Shown one piece after another: positions 32,254 through 35,181 of a stretch of 64,000 nucleotides of DNA. The DNA is from Bacteroidia bacterium. Its GTDB lineage: Bacteria; Bacteroidota; Bacteroidia; NS11-12g; UBA9320. The translations under genes and the position numbers were made by a program. The stretch spans positions 1-64,000 of the forward strand of contig JAGVMN010000021.1 of NCBI GenBank assembly GCA_020053795.1, in the 5' to 3' direction. How positions within the stretch are numbered: the first letter of the stretch is position 1; the number at the start of each line of letters is the position of its first letter. The notes under the pieces were generated by a model. It saw only the letters and a list, made by a program, of their open reading frames with translations. It made no database searches and was not told the DNA's origin.

Positions 32254-32334
32254 AATTAAAATTTTGGCAAAATTAATTTTATGATCTGCTTTTGGAATGA
32301 GAGATGTCAGGAAAGATTCTATCAAAACAAAATT

Positions 32335-32376
32335 TCGCACGGAGACACGGAGAAGCACAGAGTTGAAAATTTTGTT
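32335..32376 (+). repeat. CACGGAG-type repeat, solitary copy
   Basis: These 42 bp are identical to 33112-33153, containing CACGGAGACACGGAGAAGCA followed by CAGAGTTGAAAATTTTGTT. This copy lies just upstream of proline dehydrogenase and is directly followed by the palindrome at 32383-32406. Confidence 0.75.
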
Positions 32377-32382
32377 CATTCT

Positions 32383-32406
32383 TTGGTCGGAGTTGTCTCC
32401 GACCAA
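32383..32406. repeat. 24-bp perfect hairpin repeat (loop TTGT)
   Basis: TTGGTCGGAG and CTCCGACCAA form a perfect 10-bp stem around TTGT. The same structure with the complementary loop ACAA and slightly different stems occurs at 33034-33057 and, degenerated, at 63084-63103. The asymmetric loop gives each copy an orientation. It may be an interspersed palindrome family of this genome. Confidence 0.7.
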
Positions 32407-32449
32407 CATGAATCATGTGTTCCAATTAGTATTTGACCACAATTAAGTC

Positions 32450-32479
32450 TTGAGTGTAATGGTTTTTATCGTAATTTTG
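32450..32479 (+). promoter_or_regulatory. promoter of the small OB-fold-like gene
   Basis: TTG at 32450-32452, 19 nt, then TAATTTTG at 32472-32479: a full Bacteroidota -33/-7 pair. Transcription should begin near 32485, upstream of the ATG at 32523. This favours the upstream start of the following reading frame. Confidence 0.6.
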
Positions 32480-32522
32480 TTAAGACAACTTTAGTCAACT
32501 TCAGTCAATTATTTAATAACCG

Positions 32523-32938
32523 ATGAATATTTACGAATTGCAAGAACGTTTTGCTAGCAAAACTTCAATACAAAAAATTGAACTTTCAAAAAAATGGCTG
32601 GTAATGAAATCAACTTTGAAGGGTCTCTTGTTGATATATCAATGAATAAAATCCGATTGGAATTCTTGTACGACTTTGATTCCAAATTTTATCATTATAA
32701 CATTGTCGAAAGGATAGAATTAAATTTTGATAAGAATAGATTTACAGAGACATTATTGGATTATCAAATCGGAGATGATGTTCTAATTGAATCTACCTTC
32801 GTAAATTGGCTTAATCGAAACAGTAAAGCTCTTGATTGGTTTGAGTTGGATCTTTGTTCAATTTCAAAAATTGGGTCAACCAAACAATCTAGGGATAAAG
32901 AAATAGTTAAGAAAAGCAATAAAAAGGATTGGTTTTGA
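32523..32938 (+). CDS. hypothetical protein, possible -1 frameshift product
   Basis: Two overlapping frames lie here. The first starts at ATG 32523 (MNIYELQERFASKTSIQKIE) and ends at a TGA after 40 codons. The second, in the -1 frame, starts at an ATG at 32594 (MAGNEINFEGSLVDIS) and runs 114 residues to 32938. They meet at a run of seven A placed as A-AAA-AAA relative to the first frame, the exact form of a -1 slippery heptamer. Joined, they give one protein of about 138 residues with a continuous alpha then beta pattern (RLEFLYDFD, VERIELNFD, DVLIESTFVNWLN). It may be an OB-like domain. A mutation or sequencing error in the A-run would also explain it. The family is not recognised. Confidence 0.55.
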
Positions 32939-33033
32939 AGTCAAGTCAAGAATTCCCACTTTTACGCTTCATTGGATGCATTTGTCACCAACCTGAATTT
33001 GAACTATATCAAATCGACCAGTGTATATTTTTG

Positions 33034-33057
33034 TTGGTAGGTGACAACACCTACCAA
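33034..33057. repeat. 24-bp perfect hairpin repeat (loop ACAA)
   Basis: TTGGTAGGTG and CACCTACCAA form a perfect 10-bp stem around ACAA. It is the opposite orientation of the copy at 32383-32406 and shows compensated stem changes relative to it. It lies 54 bp before the CACGGAG repeat that precedes the GxxExxY gene. Confidence 0.7.
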
Positions 33058-33111
33058 AGAATAAAAAAAATTATTCCAAATGTCAGATGAAAAAAATGAC
33101 GAATCACAGGG

Positions 33112-33153
33112 TCGCACGGAGACACGGAGAAGCACAGAGTTGAAAATTTTGTT
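33112..33153 (+). repeat. CACGGAG-type repeat, left flank of GxxExxY gene
   Basis: These 42 bp are identical to 32335-32376. Together with the inverted copy at 33725-33752 they bracket the GxxExxY gene like terminal inverted repeats. Another CACGGAGG-containing fragment follows at about 33183-33191. Confidence 0.75.
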
Positions 33154-33240
33154 GTATGAAGGTTTCTCAATAAGACACATGAAGCACGGAGGAAAATATG
33201 TTGCCATATTTTATGAACTCTGTTTAATTATTTTTACAAA

Positions 33241-33621
33241 ATGAAACACGAATCAACTACATCAGCAATAATTGGAATCTGTATCAAGGTGCATGAACAT
33301 TTAGGCCCGGGGTTGTTGGAATCTGTTTATGAAGAAGTGATTTGTTACGAATTGGCGAAGTTTGGGATTGCATTTAAAAGGCAGCAGGGAATCCCCGTCA
33401 TTTATGAGGAAATTAAGTTAGAGTTGGGATTTCGGGCTGATGTCATTATTGAAAACAAGGTAATTCTTGAAATCAAATCTGTTGAATCAATTGCCCAAGT
33501 TCATCCAAAAACGGTTTTGACTTACATGAGACTGACAGGAATTGAGGTGGGGTTATTGATTAATTTCAATGTCGTTTTATTAAGAGAAGGAATCACACGG
33601 CTTGTGCTGGACAGGAAATAA
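33241..33621 (+). CDS. GxxExxY protein
   Basis: This 126-residue protein carries the name-giving motif in GPGLLESVYEEV, followed by FKRQQGIPVIYE, LGFRADVIIENKVILEIKSV and HPKTVLTYMRLTGIEVGLLI. The D...E.K arrangement in the middle (RADVIIENKVILEIKSV) resembles the PD-(D/E)XK nuclease fold, which has been suggested for this family. No function is established. GxxExxY genes are scattered singly in many Bacteroidota genomes and are often surrounded by CACGGAG-type repeats; here the gene lies between an upright copy (33112) and an inverted one (33725). Confidence 0.9.
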   Translation: MKHESTTSAIIGICIKVHEHLGPGLLESVYEEVICYELAKFGIAFKRQQGIPVIYEEIKLELGFRADVIIENKVILEIKSVESIAQVHPKTVLTYMRLTGIEVGLLINFNVVLLREGITRLVLDRK

Positions 33622-33640
33622 TTCTGATTCTAAAAAGGTC

Positions 33641-33668
33641 TCACGGAGGCACTGAGATTCACGGAGAG
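33641..33668 (+). repeat. degenerate CACGGAG-type repeat after the GxxExxY gene
   Basis: TCACGGAGGCACTGAGATTC followed by ACGGAGAG resembles the CACGGAG repeat but with several changes. It begins 20 bp after the stop codon and is in the same orientation as the left flank. Confidence 0.5.
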
Positions 33669-33724
33669 TTTTTTTGAAATACATGTTGCAACTGAAACCA
33701 TACAAAACAAGTAATGTCCTTATT

Positions 33725-33752
33725 CTCTGTGCCCCTCCGTGTCTCCCTGCGA
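33725..33752 (-). repeat. CACGGAG-type repeat, inverted right flank
   Basis: On the minus strand this reads TCGCAGGGAGACACGGAGGG followed by GCACAGAG, matching the first 28 bp of the left flank at 25 positions. It lies about 104 bp after the GxxExxY stop, between that gene and the leftward oxidase gene. Confidence 0.7.
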
Positions 33753-33780
33753 AAAAACAGGGCAAGTAGTGCGAAATATA

Positions 33781-35181
33781 TCACGGAAATATCTTCCCCG
33801 GATTCAGCAAGCCTTTGGGGTCGAAAACCGCTTTAATTTTTCGCATCAGATCGATTTGCATAGGTTCGAAAACTTCATTCATGTATTTCTTCTGAACCAA
33901 CCCAATACCGTGCTCGCCGCTGATGGTGCCGCCCAGTTTTTTGCAGAGCCGGAATATTTCGCGGATGCCTTCTTCCAGATGCTTTCCCTTCCAATTCTCG
34001 TCGCTCATTTCCCCTTTAATGATGTTGACATGAAGATTGCCATCGCCGGCATGTCCGTAGCAGATGCTTTCGAAACCATAACGGCTCCCTATTTCTTTTA
34101 CACCTGCTAACAATTCCGGAAGGTAAGCCCGCGAAACAACGGTATCTTCTTCCTTATAAATAGAATGGGCTTTCACCTTTTCCCCTATAGCCCTTCTGAT
34201 TTTCCAAATCTTTTCTTTTTGATCGAAGGTTTCCATGAAAAGCAAATCATCCACCCCGAAGCGTTCCAATGCCTCAGAAATCTTTTCACAGTCCTTCATC
34301 AATAAGTCAGGATCAAACCCATCCACTTCAATCAACAGGTAAATCTCCATGCCTTCTTTATGATCGAAAGTTTCATTCAGGTAGAAGGCTGATAGTTCAA
34401 CAGCTTTTCGCTCCATGAGTTCAAGGGCGGATGGCGTGACGCCTGTCCTGAATATCTCGGCCACAGCCGCACAGGCATTTCCGGCATTGGCGAAAGATGC
34501 CAGCATCAGCAGGTCATGGGTCGGTTTTGTGAGTAGCCGGAAAACAATTTTGGTAACGATTCCCAAGGTTCCCTCACTCCCAATCATCAGATGTGTGAGA
34601 CTGTATCCGGTTGAGTTTTTCAGGGTATCGGCTCCTGTCCAGATAATCTCACCTGTCGGCAAAACCACTTCGAGGTTCAGCACATAGTCGCGGGTGACAC
34701 CATATTTCACCGCCTTCGGTCCGCCGGAATTATGAGCGATGTTGCCGCCCAAAAAACAACTGCCCTTGCTGGCCGGATCGGGCGGATACAATAAACCAAC
34801 TGCCTCCACGGCATTCCTGAAAACTTCATTAATGACCCCCGGTTCTACCGTGGCCTGAAAGTTCTTTTCGTCAATCGCCAATATCCTGTTGAGCCTTTCG
34901 GTTGAAAGAATGAGGCCCCCTGAAACAGGCAAACAGGCACCGCTCAAACCTGTGCCTGCACCACGGGGTGTGAGGGGAATGTCGAATTCATAACAGAGTT
35001 TCATGATGTCCGACACCTCTTCTACTGTATCAGGTTTCACCACCACATCCGGCATAAAAACAAAATCCTCGGTGCTGTCGCTGGCATATAGTTTTCGGGC
35101 ATCGGAATCCGAAATCACAAAGTCCTTACCCACTATAAGTATCAACCTGTCGAGAAATTCGGCCTTCAATGGTTTTGCCAT
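33781..35181 (-). CDS. FAD-linked oxidase, GlcD/D-lactate dehydrogenase type
   Basis: This is a 466-residue flavoprotein of the vanillyl-alcohol oxidase superfamily. The N-terminal FAD domain shows PDVVVKPDTVEEVSDIMKLC and then IPLTPRGAGTGLSGACLPVS, the pyrophosphate-binding loop. The C-terminal domain has CYGHAGDGNLHVNI and ends GTISGEHGIGLVQKKYM. This layout is shared by glycolate oxidase subunit GlcD and by D-lactate and D-2-hydroxyglutarate dehydrogenases, so the hydroxyacid substrate cannot be fixed. No GlcE/GlcF or iron-sulfur partner is adjacent, which favours a single-subunit dehydrogenase. It is divergent from the DPP IV gene, 52 bp apart. Confidence 0.88.
   Translation of the reverse strand: MAKPLKAEFLDRLILIVGKDFVISDSDARKLYASDSTEDFVFMPDVVVKPDTVEEVSDIMKLCYEFDIPLTPRGAGTGLSGACLPVSGGLILSTERLNRILAIDEKNFQATVEPGVINEVFRNAVEAVGLLYPPDPASKGSCFLGGNIAHNSGGPKAVKYGVTRDYVLNLEVVLPTGEIIWTGADTLKNSTGYSLTHLMIGSEGTLGIVTKIVFRLLTKPTHDLLMLASFANAGNACAAVAEIFRTGVTPSALELMERKAVELSAFYLNETFDHKEGMEIYLLIEVDGFDPDLLMKDCEKISEALERFGVDDLLFMETFDQKEKIWKIRRAIGEKVKAHSIYKEEDTVVSRAYLPELLAGVKEIGSRYGFESICYGHAGDGNLHVNIIKGEMSDENWKGKHLEEGIREIFRLCKKLGGTISGEHGIGLVQKKYMNEVFEPMQIDLMRKIKAVFDPKGLLNPGKIFP

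Follow-up and report, generated by a model that had tools for sequence, protein, structure and literature searches.

Inverted tandem-unit repeats at GxxExxY genes and their gene-less counterparts elsewhere in the genome

The locus studied here raises the question of how a GxxExxY gene is related to the inverted CACGGAG repeats that enclose it, in particular whether gene and repeats form a mobile unit of about 640 bp, as the initial annotation proposed. The window, i.e. the whole stretch of 64,000 nucleotides that was analysed, comprises bases 1-64000 of contig 19 of a draft genome (2.32 Mb, 76 contigs). The gene (33241-33621, plus strand) encodes a protein of 126 amino acids and is preceded by a 42-bp repeat copy (33112-33153, plus strand), which consists of the arm TCG-CACGGAG-A-CACGGAG-AAG-CACAGAG followed by a 14-bp tail. 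A solitary perfect copy of this repeat is located 777 bp upstream (32335-32376, plus strand); the two copies are identical and lie where they were first reported. The right arm (33725-33752, minus strand) is inverted and pairs with 33112-33139 over 28 nt at 89%, in agreement with the 25 of 28 matches counted initially, while the longest outer pair is 32333-32362 / 33725-33754 (30 nt, 90%). ACAGGG is indeed present outside both ends, flush on the left (33106-33111) and 4 bp off the right arm (33757-33762). What had been overlooked is a third, plus-strand arm, TCTCACGGAGGCACTGAGATTCACGGAGAG, located 3' of the gene (33639-33668, with a unit pair at 33642-33656), so that the downstream side carries an inverted pair of its own (33639-33752). 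The arms around the gene are therefore two on the plus strand upstream (32335 and 33112) and an inverted pair downstream. At up to two mismatches, CACGGAGNCACNGAG has five matches in the window, four of which are at the GxxExxY locus; the mean in shuffled windows was 0.46 and five matches were reached in none of 100 shuffles.

The left neighbour of the gene is proline-dehydrogenase-like (31078 to about 32283, minus strand) and the right neighbour is glcD-like (33781-35181, minus strand), both on matches below the curated cut-off. The nearest titled relatives of the window's GxxExxY gene are from Bacteroidetes MAGs, which suggests that the genome belongs to Bacteroidota. Between the two 42-bp copies there is an open reading frame (ORF) of 114 amino acids (32594-32938, plus strand) without a family match, which has an unrelated palindrome, TTGGTCGGAGTTGTCTCCGACCAA, on its left (32383-32406, no strand) and a second palindrome, TTGGTAGGTGACAACACCTACCAA, on its right (33034-33057, no strand). 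No other copy of these palindromes was found in the window's genome at one mismatch. The block formed by the ORF and the palindromes (32383-33057) fits exactly between the identical CACGGAG copies.

The window protein matches TIGR04256 (E 3.9e-40; 136.8 bits, curated cut-off 35) and PF13366, PDDEXK_3 (E 3.5e-39; 134.2 bits, curated cut-off 22). PF13366 was the only Pfam family matched at E ≤ 0.1, which leaves the protein without the Y1/HUH tyrosine transposase domain of REPIN-RAYT systems. Across 49 proteins E27 and D67 never vary, and H18, E77, K79, H88, T94 and Y95 are conserved in at least 90%. E27, D67 and E77-x-K79 are the predicted catalytic residues of the PD-(D/E)XK pattern. The predicted structure (pLDDT 93.5) aligns best with SSO0001 (Z 9.1, rmsd 5.2, 103 aligned), 3ijm (Z 8.3, rmsd 3.3, 100 aligned), BpuSI (Z 8.0, rmsd 3.0, 94 aligned) and Hjc (Z 7.1, rmsd 3.3, 86 aligned). 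Among the best structural neighbours there are PD-(D/E)XK enzymes, for example lambda-type exonucleases, SSO0001, restriction enzymes and Hjc. Foldseek returned nothing from the PDB at E ≤ 0.001, and a sequence search of the PDB for relatives gave a single match at chance level (E 4.3). The protein also has a weak match (E 0.0011) to a PHROG entry that carries the label CRISPR/Cas associated, and none of the PADLOC models for known anti-phage defence was matched at E ≤ 0.01. The conserved residues, the model and its structural neighbours support the fold and the active-site pattern that had been described initially as PD-(D/E)XK-like. By its modelled fold and its E, D, E-x-K pattern, GxxExxY belongs to the PD-(D/E)XK superfamily, and nuclease activity is predicted.

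Copies of the repeat are also found away from the gene. In the window's genome, CACGGAGNCACNGAG has 34 matches at up to two mismatches, 14 of them with none or one, compared with 21 for the reversed control. Four inverted pairs are tight and enclose no gene (C47, 14249/14302; C56, 58002/58051; C65, 14193/14243, with two mismatches in the second arm; and C76, 36240/36270), and their folding as single-stranded DNA gave z-values of -6.4, -5.6, -3.0 and -5.3, respectively. A second GxxExxY match, which is partial, is found on C57 of this genome.

The framing repeats are a property of GxxExxY loci well beyond the window. In titled genome records 127 relatives of the gene were confirmed and the best 80 of the 127 were kept, which, being the most similar to the window protein, are a biased sample. 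The kept relatives are mostly from Bacteroidota; the other record titles are Acidobacteria, Planctomycetota, Verrucomicrobia, Gemmatimonadetes, Ignavibacteria, Alphaproteobacteria and Methanosarcinales. An inverted repeat or paired CRCNRRG units within 250 bp of the gene were found at 73 of 79 titled loci and at 4 of 158 shifted places, at 28 of 30 Flavobacterium loci (two of which are the same genes as titled ones, L153 being L069 and L174 being L092) and at 5 of 7 plasmid or viral loci. Neither was found at six titled loci, 2 of the 30 from Flavobacterium and 2 of the 7 plasmid or viral ones. The six titled loci (L041, L049, L050, L052, L074 and L097) have degenerate or variant repeats by eye and were scored as negative; the two plasmid or viral loci, from Treponema and Fusobacteria, carry CACGGATT- or ATCCGTG-like words, in the latter case as a direct repeat. 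Inverted-repeat scores of at least 20 were reached at 39 of 79 loci, the best among 141 shifted places being 19. Pairs of tandem C-R-C-N-R-R-G units were present within 450 bp at 68 of the 80 loci, on both sides at 49, facing inward at 42 and outward at 9.

The initial annotation held that repeats equally frequent far from GxxExxY genes would speak against the association. In number, most copies do lie far from the gene; in density, they are concentrated at it. The gene-ward word CACNGAG has 28 occurrences in each of the two adjoining 250-bp stretches, upstream and downstream, compared with 0 to 4 per 250-bp bin at 500-2000 bp; for its reversed form the first bins give 5 and 3. The repeats sit mostly within 200 bp of the gene. 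In Sphingomonas parapaucimobilis (L370, 2489-2917), where the locus is placed between fabD and fabG, the annotated GxxExxY frame includes the right arm in its 3' end. A different type of unit (CACGGATT / GCAGATTTT) is found near some GxxExxY genes (L154, L177, L372 and L373) and also as a gene-less hairpin (Flavobacterium genome G122, site 538765 of the joined stretch). Taken together, a GxxExxY gene and its repeats appear to be the two parts of a single system.

Within an arm the units follow one another at a regular distance. The step from unit to unit is mostly 9 bp (220 of 504 steps of up to 30 bp), then 12, 8, 10 and 11 bp, a few contig-cut loci being misplaced; reversed flanks gave 27 steps in all. 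The commonest unit words are CGCAAAG, CACAAAG, CGCAAGG, CACAGAG and CGCAGAG. Two Chitinophagaceae loci differ in multiple units that are altered jointly, the arm being CGC-AAAG-CTCGC-AAAG-GAGC-AAAG-ACGC in L054 and CGC-GGCG-AACGC-AACG-AATC-AGCG-ACGC in L055. In 14 genomes, gene-flanking copies included, the AAAG pattern has 56, 25, 25, 5, 1 and 1 copies and eight zeros, and the GGCG pattern 5, 4, 4, 2, 1 and 1 copies and eight zeros, so that the latter is rare in all 14. The genomic copies follow the word of the genome's own gene: AAAG-type Chitinophagaceae have 1, 5, 25, 25 and 56 copies of the AAAG word and GGCG-type ones have 0, 0, 0, 0 and 1, while the lone GGCG match in the richest AAAG genome is the AAAG word at three mismatches. 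Protein identity and arm similarity vary together across 58 loci (Mantel correlation 0.56, 0 of 999 permutations), and the correlation is 0.35 in the 1422 of 1653 pairs that share little outer flank.

Two other gene families served as controls, the 30 best TIGR02436 loci (L179-L208) and the 30 best Y1_Tnp loci from 25 repeat-rich Flavobacterium genomes. CR units within 450 bp were found at 26 of 30 Flavobacterium GxxExxY loci (24 on both sides) and at none of the 30 TIGR02436 or the 30 Y1_Tnp loci. Six of the 30 Flavobacterium GxxExxY loci stem from the 25 control genomes, and these six together with two titled ones have units on both sides in 8 of 8 cases. Y1/RAYT transposases are thereby ruled out as owners of the CR repeats, as are the four-helix TIGR02436 genes, which have their own word instead. 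Inverted repeats of any kind were found at 29 of 30 TIGR02436 and 15 of 30 Y1_Tnp loci, and many of those at Y1_Tnp look like ordinary REP hairpins. Many TIGR02436 arms consist of tandem units like TTCTAAG and TGCTGAG at the same step of about 9 bp as the GxxExxY arms. A joint grammar (NNCNRAG, at least three in a row, within 250 bp) was matched at 18 of 30 TIGR02436 loci (13 inward; shifted places 0/29 and 0/29), 46 of 79 titled GxxExxY loci (shifted 4/77 and 1/75) and 20 of 30 Flavobacterium GxxExxY loci (shifted 2/28 and 2/30), compared with 1 of 30 for Y1_Tnp. The first letters are mostly CG or CA at GxxExxY, and TT, TG or TA at TIGR02436. Since this architecture recurs at TIGR02436 with different words, it is the word and not the architecture that is specific to GxxExxY; the shared grammar with different first letters suggests that two unrelated proteins own two word families. 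In two 1.2-Mb stretches, from the Flavobacterium genomes G122 and G101, there are 64 and 63 NNCNRAG rows compared with 10 and 10 in the reversed sequence; 28 and 19 rows are of the CR type and 36 and 44 of other types. TIGR02436 words are also dispersed in these stretches, as a parallel system with an unrelated four-helix protein.

The link between gene and dispersed repeats was followed in 121 genomes of Flavobacterium, the genus of genome G006. GxxExxY is present in 98 of them, with 1 to 11 matches each. Among these 98, the word ACCRCWARGNNCRCWARG is found in 83 genomes (2079 matches, median 6; reversed control 35), compared with 4 of the 23 genomes that lack the gene (12 matches; reversed control 5); Fisher's test gives p 1.3e-9 with the kinship of the genomes ignored. 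In genomes of up to 4.3 Mb the figures are 51 of 66 and 4 of 23 (p 5.7e-7, kinship again ignored). The number of repeats correlates with genome size (0.67) and with gene copies (0.57), and ranges from 0 to 176 matches of ACCRCWARGNNCRCWARG per genome; 15 of the 98 gene-bearing genomes are without the searched word. At G006:C12:245990-247583 about ten copies of the repeat stand in tandem at a spacing of about 164 bp, with inverted arms between the later ones.

In the two 1.2-Mb stretches there are 57 (G122) and 34 (G101) unit clusters, compared with 1 and 0 in the reversed sequence, and only 2 of the 91 lie inside ORFs although ORFs cover 89%. Between the related genomes G122 and G101, 40 of 44 elements could be mapped; at 29 of the 40 the second genome also has a repeat of some kind, and at 11 it has none. 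One difference is a clean full and empty site: an 84-bp hairpin with a 6-bp repeat (about 956,320; G101 contig 11) has AAAATT on both sides, and G122 is continuous at this site. The remaining differences that were inspected are messy, some with a different hairpin in place. Arms match no better within a hairpin than between hairpins of one genome (18.95 vs 18.14; 261 of 1000 permutations). It is chiefly the gene-less hairpin that differs from genome to genome.

The gene keeps its place. Among the loci listed, many of the Chitinophagaceae type can be aligned over kilobases and have the gene in the same position, and the Flavobacterium loci sort into common syntenic groups. In one Chitinophagaceae MAG (L043, 1595-4541) the gene and its repeats lie inside a nuo operon, between two genes that we take, from their translations, to be nuoF and nuoG. 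The nuoF piece of the nuoF-nuoG junction was matched in 114 of 117 genomes. A single tblastn search with the window protein (E 1e-5) matched none of 50,697 phage records, 8 of 72,556 plasmid records matched, and a scan of IMG/VR with three peptide patterns gave one locus; one query and three patterns may miss distant phage or viral members. In PMC12085832 a GxxExxY gene is reported from the virus of a eukaryotic alga. The conserved places and the lack of a match in the phage records make GxxExxY look persistent rather than IS-like. At the ends of the gene loci, at least five shared bases were found in 9 of 60 loci compared with 6.2 expected by shuffled pairing. A precise empty site, with AAAATT on both sides, was seen for one gene-less hairpin, and the ends of the gene loci show no general target duplication. 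That the gene moves jointly with its repeats, in a unit of about 640 bp, is not borne out by the syntenic position of the gene, the phage and plasmid records or the locus ends.

The reading that we favour, to which we give an even chance, is that GxxExxY is a persistent chromosomal PD-(D/E)XK protein with cognate palindromes, whose hairpins are bred or maintained in trans in a RAYT-like manner. An arm is built of two to four tandem C-R-C-N-R-R-G units at a distance of roughly one helical turn (9 bp in most cases); two arms face each other, one set around the gene and the others as short gene-less intergenic hairpins. GxxExxY most likely binds its own arms as an oligomer and cuts at the hairpin or cruciform, and in this way probably copies or maintains the hairpins in trans, as RAYT does with REPINs, while the gene itself would be inherited vertically. 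An oligomer reading one unit per turn on paired arms would explain why the units are in tandem, why they form palindromes and why units and protein change jointly, and copying of hairpins into new intergenic places would explain their dispersal. Binding, cutting and spreading by GxxExxY are what we infer from these patterns. The wider form of the proposal, which we hold tentatively and at somewhat less than an even chance, is a broad class of palindromes made of tandem NNCNRAG-like units, one per helical turn, in which small cognate proteins of unrelated fold own one word each (CR for GxxExxY, T for the four-helix protein). GxxExxY would then represent a novel type of mobile-DNA enzyme, one by which palindromes are bred, and many so far unexplained intergenic repeats of the CTTTGCG, CTCTGTG and CTTAGAA types in bacteria and archaea would belong to this class. 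The four-helix parallel cuts both ways, making the class wider and weakening the nuclease as its driver: nuclease activity may not be the common ingredient, which lowers our confidence in a nuclease-driven model.

That parallel is also the basis of a different explanation, unlikely in our view, in which a common machinery spreads one large class of tandem-unit palindromes, and an accessory role (binding, protection or control) falls to GxxExxY or, alternatively, to the four-helix protein, each cognate to a word of its own. That two unrelated proteins of one genus share the NNCNRAG grammar, the step of about 9 bp and the inverted arms is consistent with it, as are CG/CA and TT/TG/TA words dispersed in the same stretches; however, no common enzyme was found, Y1_Tnp being ruled out as one, and repeats with the CR word track the presence of GxxExxY. 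Less probable than this is a purely regulatory role, with the repeats as operators or terminators of the gene and a regulon and nothing moving. Strong hairpins that are nearly all intergenic and mostly within 200 bp of the gene would fit such a role, but tandem arrays, turnover at orthologous sites and 0 to 176 matches per genome suit a spreading element better.

The remaining alternatives are all very improbable. A classical IS-like unit, in which gene and inverted repeats move jointly, would account for the inverted arms, the 1 to 11 gene copies per Flavobacterium genome and ACAGGG near both ends in the window; the syntenic loci, the lack of a phage match, the mere 8 plasmid records and one IMG/VR locus and the absence of general target duplication argue against it. 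Still less probable is that the hairpins are owned by a RAYT/Y1 transposase with GxxExxY a mere resident among them: Y1_Tnp is matched in 22 of the 25 repeat-rich genomes, but the inverted repeats at its loci are of another kind, with units within 450 bp at none of 30, and the three repeat-rich genomes without a Y1_Tnp match have 81, 53 and 47 repeat matches. Least probable of all is a self/non-self nuclease for which the dispersed palindromes mark the cell's own chromosome and unmarked DNA is cut. While the active-site pattern and the genome-specific words would suit this, there is no PADLOC match, many gene-bearing genomes have few word matches, and no modification enzyme is annotated beside the gene in five annotated plasmid regions.

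In excerpts of open-licence PMC papers, GxxExxY appears as a mere gene label, and PF13366, PDDEXK_3 or TIGR04256 is named in PMC9756366. Six repeat strings were absent from open-licence PMC papers and, among the matches listed, no title ties the GxxExxY family to repeats; as far as these papers go, the two look not to have been linked previously. Two loose ends are thereby joined: a protein family that is common but has no assigned function, and a type of intergenic repeat that is common in bacteria but has had no owner. Should the link prove causal, the matched proteins and DNA words would form natural series for working out the rules of recognition.

Several known systems resemble this one in part. 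MITEs and IS elements include short non-coding inverted-repeat elements of similar appearance, whereas the GxxExxY system has no general target duplication, no transposase family match and a syntenic gene. TIRYT genes and TIRtrons are likewise framed by long inverted repeats and able to form dispersed families, but the genes encode tyrosine transposases and some TIRYT repeats share a GGGGWSAS motif (PMC3733652, excerpted text). TIGR02436 in Flavobacterium shares inverted tandem-unit arms with a step of about 9 bp, a gene of about 120 amino acids and dispersed words, and differs in its unrelated protein and its TTCTAAG/TGCTGAG-type words. The closest likeness is to REPIN-RAYT, in which palindromes without a gene are likewise dispersed and also frame a chromosomal gene that is inherited vertically; in the excerpted text of PMC8049555, the RAYT gene is not seen on plasmids and the repeats are commoner in enzyme-bearing genomes. 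GxxExxY is likewise an enzyme gene framed by dispersed palindromes, and its synteny and rarity on plasmids (8 of 72,556) agree with vertical inheritance as in REPIN-RAYT. GxxExxY may also duplicate its palindromes, the sign of this being a correlation between repeats and gene across Flavobacterium genomes. It differs in its predicted PD-(D/E)XK fold in place of the tyrosine transposase, in arms of tandem 7-bp units about one helical turn apart and in the multiple gene copies that are common per genome. As the enzyme is unrelated to RAYT, this is not a RAYT system, though REPIN-RAYT comes closest to it in way of life; if the link between protein and repeats is causal, the REPIN-RAYT way of life would have been invented independently on a nuclease fold, perhaps as one of several such inventions.
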